Assembly (NCBI GenBank): GCA_029247265.1
Contig: JAQWLN010000009.1
Location: forward strand, 1-40,762
Direction of reading: 5' to 3'
Length of the DNA: 40,762 nucleotides
Source of the DNA: Fuerstiella sp.
GTDB lineage: Bacteria > Planctomycetota > Planctomycetia > Planctomycetales > Planctomycetaceae
Part shown: piece by piece, positions 6,568 through 35,362 of the stretch
How positions within the stretch are numbered: the first letter of the stretch is position 1
How the letters are laid out: each line of letters starts with the position of its first letter
Notes under the pieces: model-generated
The model's input: the letters and a program-made list of their open reading frames with translations, nothing else
Told to the model about the DNA's origin: nothing
Databases searched by the model: none
Made by a program: the position numbers and the translations under genes

Positions 6568-6588
6568 CACATTTCCGGTTGAACGAAC

Positions 6589-6694: not shown

Positions 6695-6714
6695 GATCAA
6701 CAAGCCTGAATGTC

Positions 6715-7254
6715 ATGGCACCGAGAGTTAAAACCCGGCGAAAGGTCGCCCTGCTCGTGGAAACCTCTCGTTCTTATGGACGCGACGTGCTGCGCGGTAT
6801 CGCACACTTCGCACGAACGCGAAGTGATTGGTCATTGTTGCACCGGGAAATGACCATTGATGTTCTCTTGCCGGAGTGGATGAAACAGACTGCGATCGAT
6901 GGCGTAATCGCCCGCGTCGACAATCGCACCATTAGTCCGCTTCGTCAGTTAGGCGTTCCCTGTGTCGACGTCCGCTGCAGCCGCAGCTTCACGGGCATTC
7001 CTCAGGTGGAAACGGATGATCGGATCGTCGCTGAACGCGCATTTGAACACCTGCGGGACTGTGGATTCCGGCGCTTCGCCTTTTGTGGTTTCCAGTTTGC
7101 CCATTTCTCTGACGCGCGGATTCGCTTCTTTCGAAAATTCGTCAAGGATGCCGGATGCCCGTTATCGGTCTACGAAACTCCCGGTGAACGCAATGCGCCG
7201 CTATTGAGCCTCGAAGAATCAGGACCGACCGACGCAGAAGCGATGTCCGCCTAG
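6715..7254 (+). pseudogene. XylR-like regulator, N-terminal half only
   Basis: This 179-codon frame matches only the N-terminal sugar-binding (LacI/periplasmic-binding-like) domain of XylR-type regulators. The family-typical opening RRKVALLVETSRSYGRDVLRG is present, as is VETDDRIVAERAFEHLRDCG and GFRRFAFCGF. It stops at TAG 7252-7254 in the middle of that domain, without the AraC-type DNA-binding domain, where full-length members are close to 400 residues. The matching C-terminal half lies on the other strand at 28846-29562. ATG 6715 follows directly after the operator-like repeats. It probably once controlled the divergent sulfatase operon. As it stands it could bind a ligand at most, not DNA. 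The last ten or so residues (PTDAEAMSA) may already be past the break. Confidence 0.8.
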
Positions 7255-7279
7255 CTCGCTTCGCTCGTGCCGCCTAGCT
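7247..7279. repeat. Short direct repeat at presumed rearrangement junction
   Basis: CCGCCTAGCT occurs at 7247-7256 and again at 7270-7279, separated by CGCTTCGCTCGTG. The first copy includes the stop codon of the truncated regulator. The 11-mer CGTGCCGCCTA at 7266-7276 recurs, same orientation, at 28838-28848 across the stop codon of the other regulator half. Direct rather than inverted copies would not by themselves explain an inversion, and the match is short. Confidence 0.4.
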
Positions 7280-7360
7280 GCTGCCGCAGACCTCGTGGCG
7301 GCATTGGACTACGGAGACGGTGGGAGAACACCTACCTCACGACGGTGGCGCACTCAGAGT

Positions 7361-8242
7361 TCAGGAACCGGATGTGACCACGGCATCCGCAAAGCTCTGC
7401 CCAATTTGCATTTTCAGCAGCTGATCACCAGATTCGATCACGACGGATTCTTCGGTGACCGTTACGACGCGGCCGCTGATAGCGGTTGTTTCAAAGTCTG
7501 CACCGGCCGGCAGTTTGTGAACCCGGTCACCGATCTGTTCGGTGATCCATGCGGTTGGTTTGCCGTTGCGATACGTCACGGCACTCAGGATGGTCAGTTT
7601 CATTGGATCCTGGGTATCAATGCCGATACCGAAGATATTGTCGCGGGCGATGACGTCGTAATCATGACGATTAGTTGACGCCAGCAAACTGGATTCTCCC
7701 TTGTTCAGTGATAGTCCTTTTGTCCCCGGAATCATCAGAGCCTCCACGCTCATCGACAGGTCAAACTGACCTGTCGCCCCGACAGGTGTCAATCGCAGTG
7801 TCATGATGCGGTGCAGCTGATCCGATTTTTCAACGCGGAACAGAGCAGAGGTAATTTCGTTCAGACTGCCGCGAGCCTGTACGGTGAAAGGCATCGATCG
7901 ATACAGGCCGCGCCGATTGGCCGGTGACCCGGAATCCACAGTCGCGTTTCGCAGTCTGGCGGAACGGACGGTTTCCAGCAGCCAGTTGCGATACAAAGAA
8001 CGAGCTGTCTCAGTGTCTGACGGCAGAGATTTCTTCTGCCATTTTTCAATCTTCTGGCCGGCGGCGCGACCATCAGCCAGCAGTTTTTCCTGTTTGCTGA
8101 TGTTGTCCTGCAATTCACGGTTGTCGCCCTGCAGTTCACGTAACGGTCCCTGAATCATGGACGACAGCACATAATCGCCGACGCGCACGACAGCCATTAA
8201 AATCAGCATGCCAAGTAGTAACTGTTGTCGAGTCAAGTTCAT
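7361..8242 (-). CDS. gspM: GspM/PilO-like protein with C-terminal GspC/PilP-like domain
   Basis: Inner-membrane T2SS assembly protein, 293 residues. One N-terminal transmembrane segment (about residues 8-28, LLLGMLILMAVVRVGDYVL) is followed by a coiled coil (LRELQGDNRELQDNISKQEK) and a PilO/GspM-type periplasmic domain. From about residue 190 a second domain begins with YDVIARDNIFGIG and continues as a small beta domain (GKPTAWITEQIGDRVHKLPAG, then SGRVVTVTEESVVIESGDQ). That resembles the homology region of GspC/PilP, which in other T2SS contacts secretin N0. No separate gspC is visible, so this fusion may supply it. The start overlaps the gspL stop (ATGA 8242-8239). It is the last gene of the cluster in its present arrangement, and no terminator follows before the presumed breakpoint at about 7250. 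Confidence 0.75.
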   Translation of the reverse strand: MNLTRQQLLLGMLILMAVVRVGDYVLSSMIQGPLRELQGDNRELQDNISKQEKLLADGRAAGQKIEKWQKKSLPSDTETARSLYRNWLLETVRSARLRNATVDSGSPANRRGLYRSMPFTVQARGSLNEITSALFRVEKSDQLHRIMTLRLTPVGATGQFDLSMSVEALMIPGTKGLSLNKGESSLLASTNRHDYDVIARDNIFGIGIDTQDPMKLTILSAVTYRNGKPTAWITEQIGDRVHKLPAGADFETTAISGRVVTVTEESVVIESGDQLLKMQIGQSFADAVVTSGS

Positions 8243-9822
8243 GGCCTCCCTCCATTTGTCTGCGACAACGAGGTGGGTGATTCATTGTCGGAATTCGCTG
8301 CGCCACCAGTCGTTGCGCTCGACTCACCGACAGGTGGCTTCTGATTCTTCAACGGCTCAGGTGTGTCAGAAAGATGGCTCGAATAGTCCTTCCGGGGTCG
8401 ACTTTCTACTCGCATGGTCGTCTGGAAGCTCCAGACGCTCTTCTTGCCGTCCTTAACCTCCCGAATGCCAGGTGTGCGAAGTTGGTGGTATTGGTCTCGC
8501 AGACTTGCTTCCATCTTCCCAATCGCATCCGGGGAACTGCTATTACCGCGGAATGAAATGACAGACGAAGAGCCGGAAGGGCTGGCTGAAAACTGCTGTA
8601 CTGTCAGTTCTGAGCTGGACGGCATGCGGATAGTGAGATCTCGCAGTTCATCCAGCCAGCTCATTCGTGACGCTTCCCAGGCCGTCAGAACTTTTGCCAG
8701 GTTGCGTTTTGAGCGAGTTTTTTTGACCAGCTCGTCCAGTTCGCCTGCACGCGCCTGCAGTCTCGTATTGTCTGCGGTGATATCCGCAAACTGCGAATGC
8801 ACAAAGTACCAGCCTCCTGCCAGGAGCAGAGCAATCCCAGCCACGATTGCCAGCACTCGGTTCCGTTGATTGACAGGTCGGGGTGGACGTTTGGGGTTGG
8901 CAAAATCCACCGCTGGTCGCACTCCCAGTGCCTCTTCTTTCAAGGCAGCGATCAACGGAGCGTAGGCGCCGACGGCAGCGTCTCCGGCTTCTCCGTCCAG
9001 AAGCGAACGAGATGATACTCTTCGAACGTCCACCGGAAACTGATTATTGAGAGCATCGACCAGGATCGCTGCTTCGATTTCAGAACCGACCACAACGATA
9101 TCCGAAATTTCAACATCCTGTTCAATCTGACTGCCAGCGGAAATTACCGTTCGCTGCAGTTCCGAAGTAATGTACTCCGCCGCCTCGAGCCCCCGCATGG
9201 CTCGCCCCAGACGAATGGTTCGAGACAATCGGGGAAGACCATTTTGAGCGATCAGGACATGAGTCGCTTCGGCCCCCTGGCTCACAACCATAACGGCCTT
9301 TGAGCCAGTCTCGGTCGCGGCTGCTGCAAAGACCCGCAGCGGCTGAGTAATCACCACAGCTCGGACCACTGAGCAGCCCGAATTCTGCACAACATCCTGA
9401 ATCTGCTGTTGTTCCGTGGCAGGCAGTACCATCGCACTAACGCTGCCTACTGCAGTTTCGGCAGACGGATAGGGCACGAAGTCGATGACGCTGTCATCCG
9501 AAAAACCGGTCAACTGCCGCAGTGCCATATTGCGCACAATCGTCGGCAGTTCCGCATTTGATGCGGGCGGAACCGGGAAGCTGACAGAATCAACGACACC
9601 ACGATTTACACACAGTACGAGCGTCGCTTTAGTAGCTTTCAGGTCCCGCACGAGCGAGCAAACGCGGTCGGCAACCGAAGTCGAAGCCTCGTCACTGATT
9701 TCTTCAAGGTCAATATTTCGTTCCCCGGCCTCCACCACGCGCAGCACGCCGTCGCGTTCCGCAGTGCCAAGCACATAACGGATAAAAGTCGAATTCCAGT
9801 TGATTGCAAGGAGCCTAGGCAT
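8239..9822 (-). CDS. gspL: GspL-like protein (PilM-type actin fold plus PilN-like part)
   Basis: Cytoplasmic-to-inner-membrane platform protein of the T2SS, 527 residues. Residues 1-300 resemble the actin-like PilM/GspL cytoplasmic domain (opening RLLAINWNSTFIRYVLG; later VVVVGSEIEAAILVDAL region). A single transmembrane helix follows at about 325-342 (VLAIVAGIALLLAGGWYFV). After it come a coiled coil and a PilN-like periplasmic domain (SWLDELRDLTIRMPSSSELT). The last ~50 residues are a Ser/Thr/Pro/Asn-rich tail. In the family this protein links the GspE ATPase to GspM and the pseudopilus. It lies 66 bp after gspK and overlaps gspM by ATGA. Fold and position support the call; overall similarity to proteobacterial GspL looks low. 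Confidence 0.78.
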   Translation of the reverse strand: MPRLLAINWNSTFIRYVLGTAERDGVLRVVEAGERNIDLEEISDEASTSVADRVCSLVRDLKATKATLVLCVNRGVVDSVSFPVPPASNAELPTIVRNMALRQLTGFSDDSVIDFVPYPSAETAVGSVSAMVLPATEQQQIQDVVQNSGCSVVRAVVITQPLRVFAAAATETGSKAVMVVSQGAEATHVLIAQNGLPRLSRTIRLGRAMRGLEAAEYITSELQRTVISAGSQIEQDVEISDIVVVGSEIEAAILVDALNNQFPVDVRRVSSRSLLDGEAGDAAVGAYAPLIAALKEEALGVRPAVDFANPKRPPRPVNQRNRVLAIVAGIALLLAGGWYFVHSQFADITADNTRLQARAGELDELVKKTRSKRNLAKVLTAWEASRMSWLDELRDLTIRMPSSSELTVQQFSASPSGSSSVISFRGNSSSPDAIGKMEASLRDQYHQLRTPGIREVKDGKKSVWSFQTTMRVESRPRKDYSSHLSDTPEPLKNQKPPVGESSATTGGAANSDNESPTSLSQTNGGRP

Positions 9823-9888
9823 GACATTGAATGCTAGCCTGCAGTGAAATCCGTGCGAAACCTGTTGGTCACGTCGGGCTCAATCAGT

Positions 9889-11556
9889 CTATTCAAAACC
9901 TTCAGATTTTTGTTCCAATTCACCTAACGAAACGGACAACCCCAGTTCCGCAAGGTCCACCCAGTCTACTCGGCGCGGAGGGTCATTGGCAGCATCGATT
10001 GTGACTTTACGTCGCAGGAAAGGCCCGCCGATTCGGCGATACACGATGATCTCGGCCGAATGAACATCGCCTCGTGTTGTGATGTGAGAATAGATCCGTC
10101 GAAACGTCGATAAATCTAAAATCTGCCGCGTCAGAAGCCAAACCGTCGATGATCGCTCTGTGGTGTCCAGAGTCATCCGCTGCTGAACAATCCGGGAAGC
10201 AATCGCCGGATCACCAATGAGTGCACTCAGCACCTGCTCAGAGGCCGAATTGATGTTGATCCGCCCGGTCAACACGTTGGACAACGCCGTCGTCGTTTGT
10301 TCTTCAAGCAACCGAAATTGTTGCAGACTTTCGGCACTGTCAAGCTTCAATGGGCTCTTCGCGAGCAGCCCGATTGCTGATCCCGAAGCCGATGATGGCA
10401 GTTGCACCGACGAGCCAACCAGATCTGCCAGACTTGAGATCTGATGCAGGCTTAAGGTTGTATTATTCGTGGCCACCCCCGCTTCCAATGGACCGACGCC
10501 AGGGGCTGCGGTGTCGGTTGTGCCGTACATTCGAGCTAACCGAATAAAGCGAGCGACTTCCGGCGAAAGAAACCTGCCAAGCTGCGATTCGAAATCATCC
10601 AGACTGGTATGTGCATCTTCGTTGAGCGCCAGTCGTGGCCGTCCACTGCCATCGAAATTCCGTTCAGCGCTGTGGATTGTGAGATACGAGGACCACGCCG
10701 TCGAATCCTGCGTATCTGACTGACTCGATAGCCCCGAAGTGCCATAAAAGCTGTCGCGTCCAACACCTTTGACAAACAACAGTTCCTCCAGTGAGTCGGG
10801 TAGTGCATTACGTGGCCGGTACGGCTCTGCCAGACGCTGATAGTAATCCGACTCCGCACCAAACTGGCGCGGTTGATCATCAGCATCGATCCAGTCCAGA
10901 ATCGAATCGGCAGCTTCATCTGTCATTCCCGGAATCTGCATCAGTCCGCGATGTCCGTCGCCGGGATTTTCCATATCCCATGCCAAAACGCGTGCCAGGT
11001 GCAGCTTTGCGGACTCATTCTGCAAACCAAATGTGAGTCTTTGCTGCGGGGCGCCGTCATACAATTCTTCCAGCAAGTCGCCATCAACATTCGCCGTCGG
11101 ATCTGCCGCGTTGTTCGGCAGGCTGTGTACCACTGAAAAACGGCAGCTTTCATTGTTCCCACCGATCACCGAGACATCGTCACCGGCCCCGCGAAACAGA
11201 TCAACCTGAGACACAACGCGCGACTGGAACAGAGTCGAATTTTCAGAAAGCGTCTCAGATTCGATCATCGAAGTCGCCTGTTGCTCGGCTATCGCCAACA
11301 GAAAAGTTTCGGCGCTGGCCATCGTTTGCTGCGCCTGTAGCAGGTCACCGTTGATTTTGGCCGCTTCGTACTCTGTCGTCATGTCCGCCAGAAACCCAAA
11401 ACCGGCCAGGGCCAGCATCGCCACCAGAACAAGAACAACGATCAATACGACACCGCGGCGATCGCTTTGTGTCTGTGGTACTCTGTGCCAGGTGCAGGCG
11501 ACCAGTAAATTTGGGTTGGTAAATTCCTGTGTGTCTCTCTGGGCGTTTCTCATCAT
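9889..11556 (-). CDS. gspK: GspK, pseudopilus tip minor pseudopilin
   Basis: Minor pseudopilin of the pseudopilus tip complex with GspI and GspJ, 555 residues, longer than the usual ~320-340. The N-terminal part has a ~33-residue basic leader ending RRG|VVLIVVLVLVAMLALAGF, a prepilin peptidase site with the GspK-typical lack of Glu at +5. The large helical domain contains the GspK helix-hairpin-helix-like segments LMQIPGMTDEAADSILDWID and RININSASEQVLSALIGDPA. The C-terminal region ends in a basic/acidic tail. The start overlaps the gspJ stop (ATGA 11556-11553). No prepilin peptidase gene lies in this window, so processing must rely on one elsewhere. The extra length is spread between the two helical segments. 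Confidence 0.9.
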   Translation of the reverse strand: MMRNAQRDTQEFTNPNLLVACTWHRVPQTQSDRRGVVLIVVLVLVAMLALAGFGFLADMTTEYEAAKINGDLLQAQQTMASAETFLLAIAEQQATSMIESETLSENSTLFQSRVVSQVDLFRGAGDDVSVIGGNNESCRFSVVHSLPNNAADPTANVDGDLLEELYDGAPQQRLTFGLQNESAKLHLARVLAWDMENPGDGHRGLMQIPGMTDEAADSILDWIDADDQPRQFGAESDYYQRLAEPYRPRNALPDSLEELLFVKGVGRDSFYGTSGLSSQSDTQDSTAWSSYLTIHSAERNFDGSGRPRLALNEDAHTSLDDFESQLGRFLSPEVARFIRLARMYGTTDTAAPGVGPLEAGVATNNTTLSLHQISSLADLVGSSVQLPSSASGSAIGLLAKSPLKLDSAESLQQFRLLEEQTTTALSNVLTGRININSASEQVLSALIGDPAIASRIVQQRMTLDTTERSSTVWLLTRQILDLSTFRRIYSHITTRGDVHSAEIIVYRRIGGPFLRRKVTIDAANDPPRRVDWVDLAELGLSVSLGELEQKSEGFE

Positions 11557-12734
11557 TGCAGAAACCCGTCTGCAACGTCAGGCGATGTCGCGTCAGCTTT
11601 TCCCGGACTTCGCGTTGTATCCAGCAGGATAATCCGGCTGAATGTCCGTGGAACGATTCCTTCCCACGGATCTGATTCGTCCTGTCGTGTGGAGGTGCCT
11701 GTCGAATCCGTCGCTGAAAACGAATGGTTCAGATCTTTTTCCAGAATGCTGCCTGATTCCGTCGTCGCAGGGTTAAGACTTTCAAACTCTTCAGCTGTAA
11801 TCACATCCAGCGATATTCGAACAGCAGCGGGAAGAGTTTCCGCTCGGCTCTCTGGCCAGTCCGCTACCCAGTCCTGTCGATCAAAATACTGAAAACGACA
11901 GCCAACAACTTCCGGAATCATTTCATACGTTGACGCCACCACACTTTCCTGATCATCGCTCACATCACGAAGTGGTTCGTCCTGTGGAAACAACAGCGTT
12001 TCCAGCGTTGATCGATCAAGTGACACATCGTCATTAGAAAGGCTTCGTTCGGCAGTAGATCGCTGCGCCTGCAAAGCCTTAAGATCTGCGGCGTTCACCT
12101 GCAATCGATAGAGTCCCGATGGCAATGATGAAATCCCTTCTGTCTGCCCAAACGGCTGTAGCTGATAGATGACGGTCTGGAATTCAGCCACATGGACGAC
12201 GGAGCCTTCTCCGAAATCATCCGCATGTTGCGAACCGCCGCCAAGCTCGTTGAGCAGATCAATATCCGATGGCGCCTTCGTCGCCTTTAGCGGAGGTCGG
12301 CGCATTGTCAGTCGAATTGCTGTTGGCGTTCCGGTCAACATTATCCGGGCCGGTCCGTCATATCCGCGTGCTTCAATACCGGAGGCATCAGAGAATTCGG
12401 AAAATTCTTCGACACCGAATTCCGGTGTTGGGATCTCTCCATCACCTTCACCACCAGGCTGTGTCGACGACGATTCGACAGACTTCAGCGAAACAGCTGA
12501 AAGGTCTTCCGACAGAATCTGAAAAAGTGAACGAACTAACTGTTGTTCAGTTGTTTGAGATTGCCCCGCGGTCAGCAGACTGTTGTACATTGACATCACG
12601 CCCCATGTCACGGACATCAACGCCGCAACAAGGATCATTGCTATCAACATTTCGGCAAGCGTGTATGCGCTACGCAGCAGCCGGTCGAACGCGGGCACCT
12701 GGTTGTATGTTCTGGTGTAACACCGGTGGATCAT
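11553..12734 (-). CDS. gspJ: GspJ, minor pseudopilin
   Basis: Minor pseudopilin of 393 residues, longer than the usual ~200. The leader ends RSA|YTLAEMLIAMILVAALM, with the conserved Glu at +5, but the residue before the cleavage point is Ala instead of the normal Gly. The rest is a pseudopilin-type hydrophobic helix followed by a globular region (LVRSLFQILSEDLSAVSLK) and a Ser/Glu-rich stretch (about residues 82-110). The C-terminal part has a strand pattern typical of GspJ, VVGCRFQYFDRQDWVADWPE, then LPAAVRISLDV. It follows gspI by an ATGA overlap and precedes gspK by another, matching the H-I-J-K order of other T2SS operons. Confidence 0.88.
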   Translation of the reverse strand: MIHRCYTRTYNQVPAFDRLLRSAYTLAEMLIAMILVAALMSVTWGVMSMYNSLLTAGQSQTTEQQLVRSLFQILSEDLSAVSLKSVESSSTQPGGEGDGEIPTPEFGVEEFSEFSDASGIEARGYDGPARIMLTGTPTAIRLTMRRPPLKATKAPSDIDLLNELGGGSQHADDFGEGSVVHVAEFQTVIYQLQPFGQTEGISSLPSGLYRLQVNAADLKALQAQRSTAERSLSNDDVSLDRSTLETLLFPQDEPLRDVSDDQESVVASTYEMIPEVVGCRFQYFDRQDWVADWPESRAETLPAAVRISLDVITAEEFESLNPATTESGSILEKDLNHSFSATDSTGTSTRQDESDPWEGIVPRTFSRIILLDTTRSPGKADATSPDVADGFLQ

Positions 12735-13291
12735 CGGAATCCTCCGGCGTCAGAAAACAGCTCTCCTGCGGAGTCACTGCCGGACATTTCATCGAAACGC
12801 ACCCAGCGACTGAGTCGAAACTGCACTGGCCTTCGCAGCATCGACTCAGTCTGCGAGACCTCGACGGTAAGCCCGATGAGTCCCGGTGATTCCTGCACCG
12901 ACGCGATTCGCACGGAATACAACCAACGCGAACTTCCCGCCGAAGCGGAATCATCAACCGTTCCGGTGAAGACATCGTCATCAACGAGATCTTCCAGCTG
13001 CCCGAATCCAGCCGCAGGTAACGGCGTAAGTGGCGCCTCTTCGATCGATTCCATCGGCCGAAGTCCCAGCATGATTTCGTGAATCGTGTGTTCGCACAAT
13101 CGCTGAGCTTCGGACTGAAATTCTGCCTTATTGGCCTGAGTTCGTCCCATTCCGATAAGTCGTGACAGCACAACCACACTGCCCATCAGCAACGCCGTGG
13201 CCAGGATGACCTCCATCAAACTTATGCCACGTCGCCGCGGGCACGTTGAGACTGATTGTGACCTGGCAGGCACTGAGCAAATGCGTATCAT
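12731..13291 (-). CDS. gspI: GspI, minor pseudopilin
   Basis: Minor pseudopilin of 186 residues. The basic leader ends RRRG|ISLMEVILATALLMGSV, an orthodox prepilin peptidase site with Glu at +5. A short globular domain includes EFQSEAQRLCEHTIHEIMLG and the strand LIGLTVEVSQ near the C-terminus. GspI usually nucleates the tip complex with GspJ and GspK, whose genes follow directly. Start ATG 13291 overlaps the gspH stop, and its own stop overlaps gspJ's start (both ATGA), so stoichiometric coupled translation is likely. Confidence 0.88.
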   Translation of the reverse strand: MIRICSVPARSQSVSTCPRRRGISLMEVILATALLMGSVVVLSRLIGMGRTQANKAEFQSEAQRLCEHTIHEIMLGLRPMESIEEAPLTPLPAAGFGQLEDLVDDDVFTGTVDDSASAGSSRWLYSVRIASVQESPGLIGLTVEVSQTESMLRRPVQFRLSRWVRFDEMSGSDSAGELFSDAGGFR

Positions 13292-14052
13292 TGCGTTGTC
13301 TCATCAGACAAAGCAGCGATGCGGTCGTCAACGTTTATGGAAGCCCTGCGAAACGGAGACGAATAACTAACAGCGGATGTCAGCCCCCGCACCGTCACGG
13401 TAACAACGAAATCACGGCTACCATTGATTGTTACTGTGCTGTCCTCGCTGCGGCCATTGGGCCGGAAGGATATCGACTGAGAACGAAGCTCTGAAAAGCT
13501 GGCGCCGACGACATCCGCAGGCTCATCGGCGACGACATTACCTTCGCTCTGTTCCGTCAATGGAGGCGATTCGGCAAAGGTCACACCTTCAGGTAACAGC
13601 CCCTGGCGCAGGACAGACGATTCGTGAGAATTCACCAGCACGTTCTCCGTCGCCGCCCGACCTGTTTTCAGTCCGGACAGAGGACGAGAATCACCGGTCA
13701 TGGTCGACTGCTGCAGCGGCGACGCCCCCTTTCGCTCAATCGTCCAGCTGCGGCCGCCTGCTTCGAACTGAAATACCAGCGGTACTCCTTCTCGAATCGC
13801 CAGAGACCGCGTTTTTGCGAGCGCCGCTCGCACCTGACGAGCGCTGGACCGCAGTCGACTTTTGTCGAGCGGCCCCCGCAACGACGGCAACGCGAAGGCA
13901 GCCATCGCGGCCATAATGGCCAGCACGATCAACATCTCCATTAACGAATATCCGGCGCGCACACGAGCGGACGAACCAGAGGGGCAAGAGTTCGTCAGCT
14001 TCACGTGGCTGGCAGTTGGGTGTGAATGTATGGAGCGCATGATTGTTCTCAT
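13288..14052 (-). CDS. gspH: GspH-like minor pseudopilin
   Basis: Minor pseudopilin of 254 residues from ATG 14052, which has GGAAG seven bases upstream. The in-frame TTG at 14088 is less likely. The leader ends RVRAG|YSLMEMLIVLAIMAAMAA, a canonical cleavage site with Glu at +5. The LRSSARQVRAALAKTRSLAI segment and following GVPLVFQFE are characteristic of GspH/FimT. The middle of the protein (about 110-190) is Ser/Glu-rich and longer than in proteobacterial GspH. It is separated from gspG by 166 bp that contain one copy of the dispersed repeat, the only sizeable break in the G-to-K run. Confidence 0.85.
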   Translation of the reverse strand: MRTIMRSIHSHPTASHVKLTNSCPSGSSARVRAGYSLMEMLIVLAIMAAMAAFALPSLRGPLDKSRLRSSARQVRAALAKTRSLAIREGVPLVFQFEAGGRSWTIERKGASPLQQSTMTGDSRPLSGLKTGRAATENVLVNSHESSVLRQGLLPEGVTFAESPPLTEQSEGNVVADEPADVVGASFSELRSQSISFRPNGRSEDSTVTINGSRDFVVTVTVRGLTSAVSYSSPFRRASINVDDRIAALSDETTQ

Positions 14053-14119
14053 GAACTGACTTCCATGCCATTCGTCACATATCGTCAACAGAGCGTCAGA
14101 CGATATGTTGCCGAAACCT

Positions 14120-14220
14120 ACAGCGTTTCACGCTGACCGTGCTCGCGAAGAACGCATTTCGATAGCAGTTTCGTTACTCCCACGAGCCAGTATTGTCTAC
14201 GACAACAGGTAAATTGCTCT
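14120..14220 (+). repeat. Dispersed ~100-bp intergenic repeat, copy 1
   Basis: It begins with a small hairpin sequence ACAGCGTTTCACGCTGAC, contains ACTCCCACGAGCCAGTATTG and GTCTACGACAA, and ends TGCTCT. Two further copies lie at 35247-35336 (+) and 37868-37969 (-), with matching start, middle and end. This copy sits between gspG and gspH and its last bases include part of the gspG stop codon. No coding potential is apparent; it may be a REP- or MITE-like element. Confidence 0.8.
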
Positions 14221-14791
14221 AACTGGCGCCACTTTCGTCGCCCATGTCTGCACCGTCACCGCTGGTGCCGTCGCCAGTCCAGCTGACAACATCGTCGTCG
14301 GTGTTTTCCTGGCCATCGGGGCCAAAGGACCAGATGTCAGGCACATTGATCTTGTTGTGCGTCGCTGGAAACTCATAACGATAACTATTTCCCCAGGGGT
14401 CCTTCGGCAGTGTTTCCGTTTTGATATACGGACCGTCCCAGTTCGAACCACTGCCGGCGCTGCTTTCGTCATCACCTTCCAGTTCAACATCTTCTCCGCC
14501 GGCTGAGTCACCTTCACCCGAATCTGCCGTTGGAACGGCGACCAGAGCTGCGAGGCCCTGTTCGCTTGACGGAAAACGATTCATGTCGATGGCATATCGT
14601 TCCAGTGAGGACTGAAACATTCCAATTTGAGTCTTGACGGAATTAATGTCAGCCTTTGCTTTGCTGCCCAGAAGCCGCGGTCCCACCAGCGACACCAGCA
14701 GCACCAGGATAGCCATCACGATCAGCAGTTCGGTCAGCGTAAACCCCCTGCGAACGTTTGCTGCTGCAAATTTCGTTTGTCGTTTCAACAC
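14219..14791 (-). CDS. gspG: GspG, major pseudopilin
   Basis: Major pseudopilin, the subunit polymerised into the T2SS pseudopilus; 190 residues versus ~140-150 usual. The leader ends NVRRG|FTLTELLIVMAILVLLVSL with Glu at +5. The GspG signature follows: LERYAIDMNRFPSSEQGLAAL, then GPYIKTETLPKDPWGNSYRY and the calcium-loop-like DIWSFGPDGQENTDDDVVSW. An extra acidic stretch (residues about 112-139, rich in Gly, Ser, Asp and Glu) is inserted between helix and beta part, and the C-terminus is also acidic. The start is GTG but is preceded by a perfect AAGGAGG seven bases away, fitting high expression. It lies 138 bp after gspF, with a hairpin in the gap. Confidence 0.95.
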   Translation of the reverse strand: MLKRQTKFAAANVRRGFTLTELLIVMAILVLLVSLVGPRLLGSKAKADINSVKTQIGMFQSSLERYAIDMNRFPSSEQGLAALVAVPTADSGEGDSAGGEDVELEGDDESSAGSGSNWDGPYIKTETLPKDPWGNSYRYEFPATHNKINVPDIWSFGPDGQENTDDDVVSWTGDGTSGDGADMGDESGAS

Positions 14792-14798
14792 CTTGAAT

Positions 14799-14805
14799 CC
14801 TCCTT
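14799..14805 (-). promoter_or_regulatory. Consensus ribosome binding site of gspG
   Basis: AAGGAGG on the minus strand, seven bases before GTG 14791-14789. It is the strongest Shine-Dalgarno sequence I noticed in the cluster and fixes the non-ATG start. Confidence 0.8.
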
Positions 14806-14824
14806 TTTCTGTTCGTTAGTTTTT

Positions 14825-14839
14825 TGCGGTCGTACCGCA
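14825..14839. other. Hairpin between gspF and gspG
   Basis: TGCGGT-CGT-ACCGCA is a perfect 6-bp stem with a 3-base loop in the gspF-gspG gap. On the operon (minus) strand it is followed by A residues, so it is not an intrinsic terminator. It could act as an mRNA 5' stabiliser or processing site that raises gspG relative to gspE/F. Function is a guess. Confidence 0.35.
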
Positions 14840-14929
14840 ACCAGATTCGAGTTGCCACTCGGAGCTGTATCGCTCGCTTCCAACGGATCTCAGAAATTCG
14901 TCCGTCTTCCCGCTACGACGACTCCGGGG

Positions 14930-16138
14930 TCAACTCATCGACGTACTCATCTCAAACACGGGCAACAGCAGAGCCACAATTACAAACAGCACTGCACTGC
15001 CCATTACCATTAACAACGCCGGTTCGATCAGACGAACCATTGTGTCCAATTGCCGAGCCACCTTTTTGTCGATGTTGTCGGCAATATTGTTCAGAACGTT
15101 TTCCAGATTGTTGGCCTCTTCAGCAATACTGATCATGGCCATCACGTTCGGGGGTAACAGTCCGCACTTCGAAAGCGGCCCGGACAGGCTTTCGCCCGCA
15201 GATATATTTTTCGCGGACTCCTGAATGGCCCGCCCCAGAACAACGTTGCCTGACGAATCGCTGCTGATGTTCAGAGCCTTCAGTATAGGAACTCCGTTCC
15301 GTAGTAACGTGCCCAGAATTCGACAGAATCGAGATGTCGCTCCGTTCAGGAAAATCGGTCCAAAAACAGGGACTTTCGTCTTGTAGCCATCAACGATTTC
15401 TCGCCCCCCTGGCGACGCTGTCCATTTCCGAACGCCGTACACCATTCCCGCCAGAGCCATCGCCACCAGGATCCCGAATCGCCCCAGAAAATCGCTCAAC
15501 CAAAGCAACGCCACGGTTGCGCCGGGTAAAGTCCCCTTACGTTCCAACTGAGCAAACAGGTCTGAAAACTTCGGTACAAAAAAGACGATCAGGACGATGG
15601 TCACGATCGAGCCCGCCGCGGCCAGAAATGCCGGGTACGCCATGGCCCCTTTGACTTTGGCCTTTAGCTCTTCAGTCCGTTCCAGAAACTCAGCCGTCTG
15701 CTGCAGCGACTCTTCCAGAAAGGCGCCTTCAGTTCCGGCCCGTACAATACTGATTGTCAGATCGTTAAATACATCCCCGTGAGCCCCCATCGCTTCATAT
15801 AACTGGGCTCCTTCAGAGATACGACTGCGGATGTCTGACAACACAGCCTGCATGCGTTCATGAGGTGTTTGCTGAATCAACACACTCAGGGCCTGCAGCA
15901 ACGGTACGCCGTTAGCCAGCAGATCAGCCAGCTGAGTGAGTGTGTTGGCTAATAGCTCGGCGTTGATTCGCCGATTCAGTTTCAGCGAAAACCCTGATGC
16001 CTTCGCCGGAATGACATCCAGTGGAAACAGCGAACGTTCGGTCAGTATCGCCATCACGTCACCGCGCGAATCGGCCGCAATCAGACCGTCGACGTCCTGA
16101 CCGGTGAGCGTTCTGGCGGTGTATGCGAATTCCTGCAT
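14930..16138 (-). CDS. gspF: GspF, T2SS inner-membrane platform protein
   Basis: Polytopic inner-membrane platform protein of T2SS/type IV pilus systems, 402 residues, the family's usual length. It shows the duplicated GspF domain: first copy around LLANTLTQLADLLANGVPLL through EGAFLEESLQQTAEFLERTE, second around RFCRILGTLLRNGVPILKAL through SIAEEANNLENVLNNIADN. Membrane segments are AYPAFLAAAGSIVTIVLIVF, FGILVAMALAGMVYGV and the C-terminal ALLMVMGSAVLFVIVALLLP. It works with GspE to extrude pseudopilin from the membrane. ATG 16138 lies nine bases after the gspE stop. Confidence 0.96.
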   Translation of the reverse strand: MQEFAYTARTLTGQDVDGLIAADSRGDVMAILTERSLFPLDVIPAKASGFSLKLNRRINAELLANTLTQLADLLANGVPLLQALSVLIQQTPHERMQAVLSDIRSRISEGAQLYEAMGAHGDVFNDLTISIVRAGTEGAFLEESLQQTAEFLERTEELKAKVKGAMAYPAFLAAAGSIVTIVLIVFFVPKFSDLFAQLERKGTLPGATVALLWLSDFLGRFGILVAMALAGMVYGVRKWTASPGGREIVDGYKTKVPVFGPIFLNGATSRFCRILGTLLRNGVPILKALNISSDSSGNVVLGRAIQESAKNISAGESLSGPLSKCGLLPPNVMAMISIAEEANNLENVLNNIADNIDKKVARQLDTMVRLIEPALLMVMGSAVLFVIVALLLPVFEMSTSMS

Positions 16139-16147
16139 CCCAGGTTT

Positions 16148-24558: not shown

Positions 24559-24852
24559 CAGAACACTTTTGCAGTGTGAGTGCTGTCCAAGGCGGGAGTG
24601 TAACGACAGCACGACGTGGGCGGGTGGCTGGCGGGACCAGCCAAGAAATTCCGTATTCCCCTTAGCTTATCTGGTCTGGGGATATGTCTCCAGTAAATTC
24701 CGATCCATCGAAGATGACGGGACCTGCCGAATATTAACTTCTCGCTGTTTTCAGGCACAAACGCCCCGGCAGAGCCGGACGGGAATCCCGCATGCATTTC
24801 GGGCTGGTCGTCGGGCCCATTTCCGAGAATAGGCGGGCAAAGCTGTCTGCGC

Positions 24853-24888
24853 AAAAAAGCCCCCGATCCTTTGTACTATGTACGGGGG
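24853..24888 (-). terminator. Intrinsic terminator after ppdK
   Basis: On the minus strand CCCCCG (24888-24883) pairs with CGGGGG (24865-24860), followed by C and six T (24858-24853). It lies 38 bp after the ppdK stop. It separates ppdK from the giant repeat gene, whose promoter should lie in the remaining ~290 bp (24559-24852); I see nothing else recognisable there. Confidence 0.8.
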
Positions 24889-24926
24889 ACCGGGCACGTA
24901 GTTTCTGTTTGACCTGGTGTCGAGGA

Positions 24927-27659
24927 TTAACCAGCTTCGACAGCAGCCTGTGCCGCCGCCAGCCTGGCGATAGGAATTCGACGTGGACTGCAACTAACGT
25001 AGTTCAGGCCGATTTCGTGACAGAAGTACACAGACTTCGGATCGCCACCGTGTTCGCCGCAGATGCCGATCTTCAGGTCAGGTCGAGTTTCACGACCGTC
25101 CGCCACAGCAATCTTCATCAGACGGCCAATGCCGGTCTGGTCGATCGTCTGGAACGGGTCAGCAGGCATGATGTCGTTTTCGGTGTAGTAACCGATGAAG
25201 CCCTTGTAGTCGTCTCGGCTGATGCCCAGACCGGTTTGGGTCAGGTCATTGGTACCGAAGCTGAAGAACTCGGCGGTATCGGCAATTTCACCAGCTGTCA
25301 GAGCAGCTCGAGGGATTTCGATCATCGTGCCGGTCATGAAGTCGACCGTCACGCCCTGTTCTTCGAATACTTTCGCGGCGGTTTCTTTGATGATCGCTGT
25401 CTGGTTGTCAACTTCCGCCTTGTAGCCGGCCAGTGGGATCATGATTTCCGGATGACATTCGATGCCTTCCTTCTTCAGAGCACAAGCCGCTTCAAGGATC
25501 GCTCGAGCCTGCATGGCGGTGATTTCCGGATAGACGATACCCAGACGACAGCCACGGTGACCGAGCATTGGATTGGACTCAACCAACTCGGCAACTCGAC
25601 GCTTTACATCATCTTCCGTCACTCCGAACGTCTTTGCCAGCTTGCCAGCCAGTGTCGGATCTTCGTGCATGTGGTGTTCTGAGAGGAACTCATGCAGCGG
25701 TGGGTCCAGCAGGCGAACAGTGACAGCTTTGTCACCCATTGTCTTGAACAGGTGAGTGAAGTCGTCGCGCTGAAAGTTGATCAGCTTGGCCAGAGCGGCT
25801 TCGCGATCGGCTTTCTTTGTAGCGAAAATCATCTCCCGCATTTCGTCCAGATGATCGAAGAACATGTGTTCTGTGCGACACAGTCCCACGCCTTCTGCAC
25901 CCAGCTGAATCGACACTTCCGCGTCGTGAGATTCTGTGTTGGCTCGCACGTTCAGCGTTCGATGTTCATCCGCCCATACCATCAGCTGAGCGTAACGCTG
26001 ATAGACTTCAGATTCTTCCGGATTCATGCTACCCGTCATGACTTCCATGACTTCCGAAGGACTGGTTTCAATCTTGCCAGTGAAGACTTCGCCACTGAAG
26101 CCATCGATGGACATCCAATCGCCTTCTTTCAGCACAGTGTCACCAACCGTGATGGTACCGGCTTCGTAGTCGATGTTCAGAGCATCGCAACCACAGACGC
26201 AGGTCTTGCCCATCTGGCGAGAAACCAACGCCGCGTGCGAAGATGCTCCTCCGAAGGCCGTCAGAATTCCGTTGGCAACCTTCATGCCTCGCAGGTCTTC
26301 CGGGCTGGTTTCTTTGCGAACCAGAACCAGCTGCAGGTCGTTGTCAGCATTCCACTGTTCTTCTGCGTCCGAAGCGTGGAAAACAATCCGTCCCGTGGCC
26401 GCACCTGGGCCGGCATTGATACCTTTGGCCAGCAGACGATTCTCGCCTTCCGCCTTCTTCTTATCAGCCGGATCAAAAATCGGCTGCAGCAGCTGATTCA
26501 GGTCGTCCGCAGGAATTCGACGTTTTTCCAAAGCGGTTTTTTGATCGATAAGCCCTTCGTTGACCAGATCAACAGCGATTCGGACCGCGGCAAATCCCGT
26601 TCGCTTGGCATTACGAGTCTGCAACATCCAGACTTTTCCATTTTCGACGGTGAACTCGATGTCCTGCACATCCTTGTAGTGCTGCTCAAGAGTCTGGCCG
26701 ATGTTGGTCAGCTGCTCGAAAGCTTCCGGCTTATCAATGTGCAGAGTTTCTTCAACTCGTTTCGGAGTTCGCGTACCGGCAACAACGTCTTCACCCTGAG
26801 CATTGATCAGGTAGTCGCCGCAGAATCCCGGTGTTCCGTCAGAACAGTTGCGTGTCAGGCCAACACCCGTCGCACATTCGTCGCCCAGATTACCGAAGAC
26901 CATCGCCTGAACGTTGGTCGCGGTACCCCATGAGTGAGGAATACCGTACTGACGACGGTATACCATCGCCCGGTCATTCATCCAGCTGCCGAACACAGCC
27001 CCAATGCAGCCCCAGAGCTGCTCCATCGGATCTTCCGGGAAGTCGATCCCGGCTTCCTTCTTGATAACAGCTTTGAAGTCGACAACGATCTGCCGCAGAG
27101 CCTCGACACTCAAATCACTTTCGTGTTCTGCTCCGACGGCTTCACGAGCCTTTTCAAGAATGTCTTCGAAGTGATCAGGATCATTCTTGTTTTCCGGTTT
27201 TAGATCCAGAACAACATCACCGTACATCTGAATCAGTCGGCGATAACTGTCCCATGCAAAATGCTCGTTGCCGGACTGCTTGATCAGGGCGTGGACAACT
27301 TCTTCATTGATGCCAATATTAAGGACCGTGTCCATCATGCCGGGCATTGATTCGCGGGCGCCCGATCGGCAGCTCAACAGCAGTGGATTTTCCGGATCTC
27401 CATACTTCTTACCCATCACCTCTTCTGCGTTCTTGATGGCAGCATTGACCTGATCCGCCAGATCTGCAGGAAACGTGCGATCGTTCTCGTAGAAAACGGT
27501 GCAGACTTCGGTAGTGATGGTAAAGCCTGCTGGTACGGGCAGGCCGATGCGGCTCATTTCTGCCAGGTTGGCTCCTTTGCCGCCAAGCAGTGCTTTCTGA
27601 GTTGTATTGCCGTCTGCCTTGCCATCGCCGAATGTGTAAACGTACTTAGTGTCTGCCAT
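24927..27659 (-). CDS. ppdK: Pyruvate, phosphate dikinase
   Basis: Cytoplasmic enzyme interconverting pyruvate + ATP + phosphate and phosphoenolpyruvate + AMP + pyrophosphate; 910 residues, normal family length. The N-terminal ATP-grasp domain opens with YTFGDGKADGN and GGKGANLAEMSRIGLPVPAG. The central swivelling domain carries the phosphorylated histidine in GGASSHAALVSRQMGKTCVC (near residue 471). The C-terminal PEP/pyruvate TIM barrel has GVGLCRTEHMF, GHRGCRLGI and FSFGTNDLTQTGLG, with an active-site CGEHGGDP close to the end. ATG 27659 follows 510 bp without a gene, and an intrinsic terminator follows the gene, so it is monocistronic. The PPi it makes or uses links it functionally to the membrane pyrophosphatase at 38384. 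Confidence 0.97.
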   Translation of the reverse strand: MADTKYVYTFGDGKADGNTTQKALLGGKGANLAEMSRIGLPVPAGFTITTEVCTVFYENDRTFPADLADQVNAAIKNAEEVMGKKYGDPENPLLLSCRSGARESMPGMMDTVLNIGINEEVVHALIKQSGNEHFAWDSYRRLIQMYGDVVLDLKPENKNDPDHFEDILEKAREAVGAEHESDLSVEALRQIVVDFKAVIKKEAGIDFPEDPMEQLWGCIGAVFGSWMNDRAMVYRRQYGIPHSWGTATNVQAMVFGNLGDECATGVGLTRNCSDGTPGFCGDYLINAQGEDVVAGTRTPKRVEETLHIDKPEAFEQLTNIGQTLEQHYKDVQDIEFTVENGKVWMLQTRNAKRTGFAAVRIAVDLVNEGLIDQKTALEKRRIPADDLNQLLQPIFDPADKKKAEGENRLLAKGINAGPGAATGRIVFHASDAEEQWNADNDLQLVLVRKETSPEDLRGMKVANGILTAFGGASSHAALVSRQMGKTCVCGCDALNIDYEAGTITVGDTVLKEGDWMSIDGFSGEVFTGKIETSPSEVMEVMTGSMNPEESEVYQRYAQLMVWADEHRTLNVRANTESHDAEVSIQLGAEGVGLCRTEHMFFDHLDEMREMIFATKKADREAALAKLINFQRDDFTHLFKTMGDKAVTVRLLDPPLHEFLSEHHMHEDPTLAGKLAKTFGVTEDDVKRRVAELVESNPMLGHRGCRLGIVYPEITAMQARAILEAACALKKEGIECHPEIMIPLAGYKAEVDNQTAIIKETAAKVFEEQGVTVDFMTGTMIEIPRAALTAGEIADTAEFFSFGTNDLTQTGLGISRDDYKGFIGYYTENDIMPADPFQTIDQTGIGRLMKIAVADGRETRPDLKIGICGEHGGDPKSVYFCHEIGLNYVSCSPRRIPIARLAAAQAAVEAG

Positions 27660-28170
27660 TTTGGGTTAGACCTCGTCCGGTAGTGTCGTGGTGATCACGA
27701 CGAAAGTGTGGCGCCGAGAATTGACGCGTAGGATGCCCCAACCTGTTTTCTATCAACAACTTGGGGATTCTAAACAGAACGAACGACCACCGGCGCGCAA
27801 CCACGCATCACCAGACTGGCGTTCAAACGAGCGACCACGGTAACACCGGTTCCGACAAACTTCAAGCACTTCAGAAAGTGACCAGAAACGAGAGAAAACG
27901 CTGATTTGAGCGAGATTCTGCGCCAGCTTCACAAAACGCTCTTGCGAGCCCGAAGCTCTTCGGCAGAATGGCTGATTCAACGTTTGGTCCCCAGCAACGC
28001 GGAATCGTCAAAACATTGTGTTGCGCCAGGATTTACGCCACGGGAAGTAGGTGCTAATACTATTTCCAGTGGACGCAGGCACAGGCCTCTTCCGAATCTG
28101 TGGAGAGTCGACTTGTGTTCAGTCAGTTCGACTCGGAAGAGTCCGGCTACAGATTTCGGAGTGGTTTCAT
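27660..28170. other. Gene-free divergent region between ppdK and aroH
   Basis: The 511 bp hold no supportable gene; open frames here lack family-like composition. The promoters of ppdK (minus) and aroH (plus) must lie here, but no operator or riboswitch was recognised. Confidence 0.5.
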
Positions 28171-28542
28171 ATGTCAGTGCGTGGCATTCGAGGAGCGACC
28201 TCCGTCGACGCCGATGTGCCGGAGCAGATCCGCGAAGCAACACAGGAACTGATTGAAGAAATCCTGAAACGTAATGAGATCACAGACTTCGATGATGTGA
28301 TTTCTGCCGTCTTCACCACCACCCAGGACCTGGTGTCAGCGTTTCCTGCCGAGGCCGCTCGCCACATTGGAATGACGACTGTCCCTCTGCTGTGCGCTCT
28401 GGAAATCCCCGTCGCCGGTTCCATGCGGAAATGTGTTCGCATCTTGCTGCACGTGAATAGTGACCGGAAACCTGCCGATATTGAGCACGTATATCTTCGT
28501 GAAGCCGAGAAACTGCGGCCTGATATGAAGAGCGCTCAGTAG
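28171..28542 (+). CDS. aroH: Chorismate mutase, AroH type
   Basis: Monofunctional AroH-class chorismate mutase, converting chorismate to prephenate in Phe/Tyr synthesis; 123 residues, a trimeric enzyme in the family. The residues known from the Bacillus subtilis enzyme fall at the same numbers here: Arg7 (MSVRGIRGAT), Cys75 and Glu78 (LLCALEIPV), Arg90 (KCVRILL) and Tyr108 (EHVYLREA). That numbering also fixes ATG 28171; the frame is open further upstream, but the extra residues are not family-like. It is a single gene, divergent from ppdK. Inside the presumed inverted segment it would originally have pointed the other way. Confidence 0.95.
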   Translation: MSVRGIRGATSVDADVPEQIREATQELIEEILKRNEITDFDDVISAVFTTTQDLVSAFPAEAARHIGMTTVPLLCALEIPVAGSMRKCVRILLHVNSDRKPADIEHVYLREAEKLRPDMKSAQ

Positions 28543-28595
28543 CTTAGCCCCAGAAACGTTGCTCGGAACGATTTCGCGTAGATGGATTACGCCGA

Positions 28596-28832
28596 TTGCC
28601 CCGGAACGAATTGCACGAGCGGAAGTCCATTCCAGACCGGATTCGGGTGGACTCCGGGTCGGAAACTCCTAAAAAAGACGGCCTGCATTTGGCCATCTCT
28701 TATCAGACATTGCTCGACCTTGAGCGGGTAAGCGACTTGGCACGGTATCGTGGAGTCTGTCGGGACTGGGTTGACCCGGTACTGAATCGACTGAACCAAG
28801 TGGGGTCCAGAACCGGAGAGAGTGCCACCTGA
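28596..28832 (+). CDS. Small ORF with possible HTH; remnant
   Basis: This 78-codon frame is not clearly recognised. The segment GLHLAISYQTLLDLERVSDL followed by ARYRGVCRDWVDPVLNRLNQ has the spacing of a helix-turn-helix. It recalls small HTH proteins encoded next to serine site-specific recombinases in planctomycetes and other bacteria (LA..F..L...G.V.dyA.LA...gVsRArvtQIm.LL). No recombinase remains nearby, the Shine-Dalgarno is weak, and the ends look unrelated, so it may be a decayed fragment or chance. It lies between aroH and the broken regulator half. Confidence 0.3.
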   Translation: MPRNELHERKSIPDRIRVDSGSETPKKDGLHLAISYQTLLDLERVSDLARYRGVCRDWVDPVLNRLNQVGSRTGESAT

Positions 28833-28845
28833 ACCGGCGTGCCGC

Positions 28846-29562
28846 CTACACTTCATGTAACTTCATTCTTCGTCGGTATTCTCCGGGCGTCTGACCGACC
28901 TCTCGCTTGAAAACGGCATTCAGGCTTTCTTTGTGACCGTATCCGGCCAGTGGAGCGATTTGTTCAAGCGTCCTATGTGTTTCCTGCAGCAGTTGCTGAA
29001 CTCTGGTGACTTGCGCTGCGGTGATCTCTTTATGAGGTGTACTGTTGAGCTCAGCGCGAAAGCGGCGTTCCAGTTGCCGGCGTGACAGCGAAGCGAATCC
29101 GGCAACATCGTTCACATCGATGCCGTGGCATGCGTGTTCGCGGATGAATCGACAGACGCGGGCGAGCTCACGATCTTCAATTGCCATGACCTGTGTGGAC
29201 ATCCGTTGCACCACGCTCACTGGCGGAACATATTCGACGGCCGTTGGCGCCGGTTTGCCATGCATCATGGCATCAAGAATTTCAGCAGATCGGTAACCCA
29301 CGCGTTCTGCATCAGTGCGAACACTGGACAAAGGCGGATCGCTCAGCGGACAGATGGCGTCATCATCATCCACTCCCAGGACTCCAATATCGTCGGGCAC
29401 AGCAAGATCCAGTGCTCGACATGCATTCAGAACCTGTTGTCCTCGAATATCGTTGCAGACGAACAGCCCGGTAGCCTGTTTTCAGGCAATTCGTGCGCCC
29501 TGAGTTGCAGATTTGAGATCATTCGGTGGCAGCATCTGCAGGAACCGCCGGAAACAATCAGT
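28846..29562 (-). pseudogene. XylR-like regulator, C-terminal half only
   Basis: The reading on the minus strand begins around FRRFLQMLPPND, passes an in-frame TGA (29484-29482), then continues through GLFVCNDIRGQQVLNACRAL, VPDDIGVLGVDDDD and LSSVRTDAERVGYRSAEILD. It ends in a complete AraC-type DNA-binding domain (LARVCRFIREHACHGIDVND, SLSRRQLERRFRAELNSTPH, YGHKESLNAVFKREVGQTPG). The N-terminal ~170 residues of the family are absent, and upstream codons are unrelated. This is exactly the part missing from the plus-strand fragment at 6715-7254; together they give a normal ~400-residue regulator. A 184-residue frame from GTG 29400 is open and might still be expressed, but no promoter or Shine-Dalgarno supports it. 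Confidence 0.8.
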
Positions 29563-29730
29563 CCCTCTCACTGGTCCCGGTCAGCTGGCCGGGTTGGTGC
29601 TGTTTGCACATTGTGCCTGTCCTGTTTGCGGCATACGCTCGGCGGTTTTCAGGCACTTCTGAGGCACGAAACCTCTCGTGGTGCGCACGGATTACCACTC
29701 GACACGCTGTTTTCCAGATCGAATGCGTCC

Positions 29731-32700
29731 ATGAAGGGACTGTGCATATCCATAATCACCGTTGCGGTGGTCTGTTGTGAGCTGTCGCCCGGCGCCTATG
29801 CTCAAAGGGCGAATGATCAGCTTAAGGCTTATTCACTGCAATATGTCGAGCCTGACGAAGCACGGCGAATGCTGACCGAGCTTTTGGGTGAAGAAGTGAG
29901 CGACGTCCGAATTATCGCTGACGCAAATAAACGTCAGCTTGTTGTGTCCGGTGCCCAAGACGTTCATCAGCTGGCTGCGGAGTTGATTCGGCAGATCGAC
30001 CAGCGGAGTTCGTCAACGCAACAGAGCAGCGAGCCATCCGTTCTGAAAACGTATCGGATTCGTCGAACGCAGGCGAGCCATGAGTTGGACCTGATTCGAA
30101 AACTGGTCGGCCGGAATGCTCGCGTGACGCTTGATGGTAGCCGGGATCAGGTCATTGTTGTGACCTCTGAAAGCAATCACAGTCTGCTGGAACAGGCGCT
30201 TCCCTCGGCTCAGGCACGGGATTCTCAAACACTGCGGCAATTACCCGGCAGAAAGCCTCTGTCCTGGCCGTCCGAACAACGATCCCAATCGATTGAAGTG
30301 GCAGATCCGTCAGTTCTGTTTCCACGAAGTGCGATCAACTCAGCGAGGGCGAAATCGGCATTGCGGGAGTACCAGTTGAGACGCATTACAGTCGAGCAGT
30401 GTCAACAGGCTTTCAAAAGTTTGCTTGACCGGAAACTTTTCGATCTTGGCGATAACCGATTTCGATATGCCGCAGGTGGTTCCAGTATCTCGATTGTCTT
30501 TCGTACTAACAACAACGTCTGTCAGCTCGACGGTGATCAGAAACTGGTTGACCAGTTCGTGTCGCTCATGACCAGGTTTGAAGATTCTCAGGACAAAAAC
30601 TCACCTGGCGGTATTCGGTTCGTTCCACTGCGGAATGTGAATCCTGAAGTACTGAATCGAGCGATAAGGGTCTGGCGCCAATCTTCAGGCCCACAGCAGG
30701 AAACGCTAAAGGGCGTTCAGGGGGCATTCTCTGATCGCAGCGAATCGATGATTCGTCCGGCTGGATTCGTGCAGGTTCAACCCTCTGAGGATCCCGGTCA
30801 GGCGAACGGGAATGGCCGCCCCGACAGCGGTACGGGGCTGCGGCGTCCGTCTTCGGACGTTGAGGTACAACCACTTCCGGATCTGGACGTGCTGATCCTC
30901 CGCGGGCGTGATCCCGACGTAGACGAACTGGTCAAAATTATTCAGGAAATCGAACGACTCAGTGACGAAACCTCTCCGGGAATCGAAGTCTACTTTCTGC
31001 GGCACGTCAAAGGGGAAGCCCTGAACGAATTGATCGAAGATGTACTGGATGATCTGACAGGGCCTCTTCAGGGGCGAATCGCAATCACGCCCCTTGTGAA
31101 ACCGAATGCCTTGCTGCTGATTGGTTGGGGAGAAGCCGTCAATGCGGCAAAGAAGCTGATCGAGAAGCTCGACCGATCAGTGAACCCCAGTACTCAGATG
31201 CAGGTGTTCTCACTGAAACATGCTCCTGCCGCTGAGGTCAGCACAATGCTGGAGGAGTTTCTGAATGGTCGTGGTGGGCTGGCTCCGGATGTCAACGTCA
31301 CGGCCAATCCACGGACTAACAGTATTATTGTTAACGGTTCGCCGCGAGACATGGAGGAAGTGTCTCAGTTGATCCAGCGATTGGACGTGAACACTGCCGC
31401 GTCCGTGAATCAGGCCCGGATGGTTCGACTGAAGAATTCGCTTGCGGCTGACGTCGCGGCCACGATTACAACAGCGATAAGCGCTGCCAGAGGTGGCGGC
31501 AATGGCCGGTCGGCAGCTTTGGAATTGATGCTGGTGCAGCCGAATGGAGAAAAGGTAGTCGCCTCCGGATTTCTGGACGAAGTGACGCTGACTCCGGATT
31601 CCAGAACGAACAGCGTCTTTGTCAGTGGCCCGGAAGAAAGCCTTCCGCTGGTTGAGCAGTTGATTGAACAACTTGACGAATCTCCGGCCGCGTCTGCTCA
31701 GATCAAAGTTTTTCAGGTGTCCAACAGTGACGCCAGTGACCTGGTGACAGTTCTGCGATCCCTGTTTCCTGAGGCGGCGTCCACGTCCATGGTGCCTCAG
31801 CTGGCGACTGCCGAAGGCGAATCGTCAATGGTTCCCGTTCGATTTTCCGTCGACATCCGCACCAATACGATTGTTGCCACCGGCGCGGCAGGTGACCTGC
31901 AAATCATCGAAGCACTGTTGCTGCGACTTGATCAGACGGAATCCCAGGAACGCGTCAATCATGTATACCGGCTGAAGAATTCGCCGGCGACGGACGTCGC
32001 TCAGGCTGTCAACGATTTTCTTCGCAGCGAGCGGATTGTTAGTCAGGCAGCGCCTGGCCGACAAAATCCGTTTCAGCAGATTGAACAGGAAGTCATTGTC
32101 GTCCCGGAACCCGTGCGTAATTCACTGATCATCAGTGCGACCCCGCGTTATTTTGAACAGATCATGGAGCTGGTCGAAGATCTGGATGACGAGCCGCCGC
32201 AAGTGATGATTCAGGTGATTCTGGCGGAAGTGGATCTGAATAATTTCCATGAGTTCGGAGTTGAAGTCGGACTGCAGGACAGCCTGCTGTTTGACAGAAG
32301 TCTGCTTGGGGAACTTCTGACGACAACCGTCAGCTCTTCACTTTCCACGCCGGCCGGAGTTGTTACGACCACAACAGACAACATCATCGGTGCAACCAAC
32401 GCACCGGGTTTCGACTTTAACAACAGCCCACTCGGTAACAGCGGCAGTACTCAGTCAACGGGGACAGCCGGTAATGCGGCGGGTCAGGCCCTGTCGCATT
32501 TCAGCCTTGGTCGAACCAACAGCGATCTGGATTATGGCGGACTCGTACTGTCTGCCAGTAGCGAAAATGTCAGTGTGCTGTTGCGAGCTCTTGACCAATC
32601 GGGCAGCATGGAAGTGCTGAGTCGTCCACAGGTCATGACGCTGGACAATCAGCAGGCCTTTATCCAGGTTGGCCAACGCGTGCCGCGTGTGGTGAGCAGC

Positions 32701-35336: not shown

Positions 35337-35362
35337 GACAAATTGTGCTTCTTCATGTCCTG

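Follow-up and report, generated by a model that had tools for sequence, protein, structure and literature searches.

The stretch of DNA analysed here (the window, 40,762 nucleotides) corresponds to G000:C164:1-40762 in the draft genome of a Fuerstiella sp. (G000; 6.53 Mb in 280 contigs, 90.5% complete). Its left side carries sulfatase, DUF1501 and PSCyt1/DUF1549/DUF1553 genes (468-6570, minus strand; Pfam), divergent from the N-terminal part of a XylR-type regulator (6715-7276, plus strand). There follow, rightward, the type II secretion genes from gspM to gspE and the gene for a giant protein, all on the minus strand, then a pyruvate phosphate dikinase (PPDK) gene (24927-27659, minus strand; Pfam PPDK_N, PEP-utilizers), a chorismate mutase gene (28051-28542, plus strand; Pfam CM_1), the C-terminal part of the regulator (28846-29474, minus strand) and, on the plus strand, gspD with a lipoprotein-like gene. 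A literature search of titles and the openings of abstracts found nothing in them on this locus.

The gspM-like gene (7361-8242, minus strand) has no Pfam match and was named by its position, directly before gspD in six relatives. The gspL to gspE genes (8239-17866, minus strand) gave matches to T2SSK_1st/T2SSK, T2SSJ, T2SSG, T2SSF and T2SSE, with H, I and L lacking a Pfam match and likewise named by position. Adjoining gspE is the giant protein of 2155 aa (18145-24612, minus strand), with eight Secretin_N stretches and no Pfam match to a Secretin domain; several planctomycetes encode related giants in the neighbourhood of gspE or gspD. The secretin gene gspD (29731-33579, plus strand; Pfam Secretin, E 1.8e-44, and Secretin_N) is preceded by a conserved leader (29475-29730, plus strand) that is identifiable, by identity to relatives G001 and G002, as part of the old gspM-gspD spacer. 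It is followed by the lipoprotein-like gene (33546-34547, plus strand), without a Pfam match and found after gspD in 33/33 loci (L108-L140). The constituents expected of type II secretion, namely Secretin, the ATPase (T2SSE), GspF (T2SSF) and the major pseudopilin GspG (T2SSG), were all present by Pfam, and the gsp genes in the window are still open frames. Single stops occur in the aligned H rows (G001, G002) and in the giant-protein row (G002), where the window ORF starts may have been placed too far upstream.

The N-terminal piece of the regulator matched PBP1_XylR (E 4.3e-8 on 6715-7254) and Peripla_BP_3 at profile positions 2-55, and the C-terminal piece matched HTH_18 (E 2e-19) and Peripla_BP_3 at profile positions 102-167 (on 28846-29400), that is, the end of the sugar-binding lobe and an AraC-type HTH. 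In G002 both pieces match, on one strand and without overlap, a single 412-codon open frame (78% identity to G002:C90:73976-74509 and 82% to G002:C90:73325-73876, the two matches being separated by 99 nt). The XylR N-terminal domain, the periplasmic-binding-type domain and the AraC HTH are therefore in one frame there, flanked by the same divergent DUF1553 neighbour, whereas in the window they are divided between two pieces, one on each strand, with 22 kb separating them. A search of the source genome with each half as query (E ≤ 0.001) returned the self-match only and no paralogue, so that the assignment of the halves is not confused by one. What the window holds is the remains of a XylR-type AraC regulator, not a member of that class, and for annotation purposes the two pieces should not be taken as two genes. 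Intact regulators are present in G002, G003, G004 and G006, those of the last three being possibly paralogues. In G003, pieces on C145 and C101 resembled another split regulator, a reading that was rejected: both reach contig ends, and the frame on C145 continues open through the site at which the window gene is broken.

The first-pass annotation had proposed that the two halves are one gene, and the alignment of both to one full-length homologue bears this out; the places and strands it gave also hold, with both ends requiring correction. The N-terminal half had been ended at 7254, where its ORF stops at an in-frame TAG (7252-7254, plus strand) aligned to tryptophan in 5/5 homologues (4 genomes), but the homology continues to 7276. 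The C-terminal half had been extended to 29562, 88 nt too long, its true end being at 29472-29474. In alignments with G001 and G002 the excess, 29475-29562, falls in the gspM-gspD spacer and not in the regulator, and the in-frame TGA of the half as originally proposed lies within it.

The same-genus comparison set consisted of eight genomes, G000 included. The nearest named relatives found were two Fuerstiella MAGs, G002:C90 (JAQWOH010000019.1) and G001:C75 (JAPYTO010000075.1). G001 is probably the closer of the two to the window, because synonymous differences are lower against G001 than against G002 in 11/13 genes compared. By blastn, window 7360-28577 matches G002 52027-73180 in the sense opposite to both flanks. 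Window 645-7274 runs from G002 83147 to 73950 in four pieces, one gap of which holds about 2.3 kb extra in G002; window 29472-28822 then continues at G002 73948-73298, window 28577-7360 at G002 73180-52027, and window 29493 onward from G002 51946. Window positions 7274 and 29472, some 22 kb apart, hence meet at G002 73950 and 73948. The order in G002 is regulator, chorismate mutase, PPDK, giant Secretin_N protein, gspE-M and gspD, and on the gspD side the reversal relative to the flank is also seen against G001 and G005. The inverted segment spans about 22.2 kb (7277-29471, limits ±3 shared bases).

These comparisons uphold the central proposal of the first-pass annotation. Gene calls and Pfam agree that all gsp genes E-M lie on the minus strand between the breakpoints, with gspD on the plus strand outside them. 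That a single flip repairs both the regulator and the secretion cluster is seen directly in G002, where the regulator is intact and all the genes stand in their predicted places, and a relative with the predicted order together with an exactly rejoined frame makes coincidence as unlikely as had been argued. As far as can be judged from sequence, the 22.2-kb inversion is real, and we put at about 94% the probability that it was a balanced event in the lineage of the window after the split from G001 and G002. One finding runs against this reading: the linkage of regulator and chorismate mutase was seen in G002 alone. The chorismate mutase of G001, at a contig end, adjoins other genes instead (the nearest being ScpA-like by reading of the frame), so that the placing of the regulator at this locus is drawn from G002 only.

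Both junctions could be placed to within 3 bases from the alignments and the rejoined frame, with CTA common to both sides at the left (7274-7276) and TAG at the right (29472-29474). Regulator homology on the left ends with CCGCCTA at 7276 and on the right, read on the minus strand, starts CTACCGGG from 29474. When the pieces are rejoined with CTA counted once, ...LASLVPP is followed directly by TGLFVCNDIRG..., in frame, with no codon lost or gained, and the rejoined regulator aligns without a gap to SLTPPTGLFVCNDIRG of G003. Of the reciprocal junctions, the regulator side is thus exact in frame, and the spacer side was aligned to G001 and G002, being weakly conserved there. Exact inverted matches between the junction areas reached at most 7 nt within 100-nt flanks (null 6-10, 30 pairs), 8 nt within 250 nt (null 8-11, 28 pairs) and 12 nt within 1 kb (null 10-12, from 5 pairs only). 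With no linking inverted repeat above chance, inversion driven by an IS, rRNA or other repeat was rejected; direct matches reach no more than 9 nt within 100 nt of the junctions, and such a match would not invert. Four stretches close to the junctions, folded as RNA, gave z-scores of -0.38 to -0.76. The 10-mer CCGCCTAGCT occurs both at 7249-7258, over the nonsense codon, and at 7270-7279, over the left junction, 21 nt apart, either by chance or through templated mutation.

A close relative of gspL (E below 1e-100) was found in G000, G001, G002, G005 and G007, all of the same genus. The synteny check on the predicted neighbours came out as expected in six relatives, with gspM directly before gspD on one strand in G001, G002 and G005 within the genus and in G022, L108 and L115 outside it. 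In G007 gspM is followed by another gene (sulfatase-like by reading of the frame), and gspD is on a different contig with a different upstream gene. Elsewhere, gspM and gspD lie on opposite strands (L129, L132, L133, L138 and G027) or on different contigs (G030), and in the single-contig G025 millions of bases separate them; loci L109 and L114 duplicate G007 and G001, respectively, and at the other loci examined no gspM match was found (E ≤ 1e-4), in several with 5-10 kb in view upstream of gspD (for example, L110, L111, L113, L126 and L136). It appears likely from this distribution that the gspM-gspD adjacency is ancestral for the genus and not for the phylum, and the present case accords with the variable placing of gspD and gspM elsewhere in the phylum. 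L129, L132, L133, L138, G027 and G025 resemble the window in having gspD separate from or opposite to gspE-M, but no inversion junction was traced in them and their arrangement may be older or independent.

It could be argued from such loci, and from G007 and G030, where gspD also stands apart from gspM, that the order in the window is the ancestral one and that of the relatives derived. Set against the intact regulators of G002, G003, G004 and G006, and the colinear gspM and gspD of the two closest relatives and G005, this has almost no chance of being correct. An assembly error, in which the contig was misjoined and the organism keeps the ancestral order, is conceivable in an incomplete draft of so many contigs, yet we regard it as very unlikely. 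There are two balanced, base-exact junctions sharing 3 bp, the window contains no N, a search of the assembly yielded no second copy of either junction region, and the N-terminal half carries an independent stop, as expected of a gene that is truly broken. Mis-assembly driven by repeats in particular is unlikely, since inverted matches between the junctions are no longer than those expected by chance.

The balanced and conservative exchange would suit a reversible switch (phase variation), in which a site-specific recombinase keeps part of the population in the ancestral order. The 7-nt inverted match near the junctions is, however, like that of random pairs, no recombinase family was among the Pfam matches of the 20 window proteins scanned, and the nonsense codon in the N-terminal half means that flipping back gives no full-length frame, which leaves this explanation almost no chance of being correct. 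We therefore retain a single balanced inversion as the explanation of the locus.

Small balanced chromosomal inversions can arise by illegitimate (non-homologous or microhomology) recombination. The present case is like these in its two reciprocal junctions, the absence of visible loss and the few shared bases, a likeness limited by its being one genome and by 3 bp being near chance. One of the breaks would have hit the XylR-type regulator gene, within its sugar-binding domain, and the other the gspM-gspD spacer on its gspM side, where conservation is poor. The ends probably rejoined at CTA/TAG without the help of repeats, through illegitimate end joining or template switching. Use of microhomology at the junctions is possible, although three or more shared bases are expected at a random junction with a chance of about 5%, and the 3-bp microhomology for this reason says little about mechanism. 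The event is of an ordinary kind, resolved unusually cleanly, and answers no large open question: in an uncultivated planctomycete a base-exact, repeat-less inversion breaks a regulator, and a relative keeps the ancestral order.

The first-pass annotation had also described the giant protein, gspE to gspM, gspD and the lipoprotein gene as one operon split by the flip. The colinear order stands, but the single operon was overstated, because a conserved leader of 256 nt stayed with gspD and because in several other planctomycetes, G007 among them, gspD does not adjoin gspM. The gspD side of the spacer, this leader, is 71% identical to G001/G002 (367/518 cells, gaps counted) and the gspM side 41% (74/180 cells, gaps counted). 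Given these features the secretion system may work as two transcription units. A consensus scan of 28500-29900 for a sigma-70-like promoter found none, which counts against the idea; the scan of the right side gave 0 promoter-like sites (0.6 expected) and 1 terminator-like site (1.1 expected). The spacer of more than 300 nt, with its conserved gspD-side part, may nevertheless hold a separate promoter for gspD.

The regulator itself would be dead, because its DNA-binding half now lies 22 kb from the N-terminal half and its promoter. Compared with G002 it still looks constrained overall (dN/dS 0.13). With G006, G003 and G004 as outgroups, 31 unique amino-acid changes were counted in the window against 18 in G002 (p 0.085), an excess that gives no more than a suggestion of strong pseudogene decay. 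Taken together, these values point to a loss that may be recent. Other copies of this type of regulator in the genus are broken as well: a truncated relative lies beside a DUF1553 gene in G001:C91 (L181:1-1318), and a second, with an internal part missing, in G004:C316 (L182:9086-9430).

In 4/5 relative loci (G002, G003:C145, G004:C259 and G006:C416, but not G003:C132) the regulator and a DUF1553 gene are divergently oriented, and the regulator was likely the former local regulator of the sulfatase/DUF1553 cluster. Two TGCGACA direct repeats lie between the DUF1553 gene and the regulator (6589-6693) and are shared by 4/5 aligned sequences including the window, the second repeat in G004 being TGCGTCA, one base different. 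Together they form a candidate operator for the XylR-type regulator.

In the flipped arrangement, gspE-M and the DUF1553/DUF1501/sulfatase cluster run in the same direction, with 790 nt from gspM to the DUF1553 gene. The flip could conceivably have rewired the carbohydrate cluster, destroying its own regulator and leaving its enzymes to be made by read-through from the gspE-M operon. If so, the enzymes would be expressed together with the apparatus that possibly exports them. On the read-through strand one terminator-like site lies between gspM and the cluster, no more than in shuffles, and the left side as a whole gave 1 terminator-like (1.2 expected) and 1 promoter-like site (0.4 expected). 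A promoter-like site facing the DUF1553 cluster remains, which counts against read-through, and we consider such rewiring unlikely.

A dispersed intergenic repeat of about 105 nt with sharp ends, beginning with the 6-bp inverted repeat CAGCGT TTC ACGCTG, occurs in the window at about 14115-14225 (plus), 35246-35340 (plus) and 37866-37970 (minus). It was rejected as a substrate of the inversion, since it would flip a different interval and lies at neither break. At gathering scores Rfam gave no match in the window, this repeat included, and a fold of 10 copies showed no compensatory changes. The repeat was found in 0/13 candidates in G003, 0/16 in G007 and 13/40 in G004, and there are at least 40 copies (40/40 candidates scored) in each of G000, G001, G002, G005 and G006.
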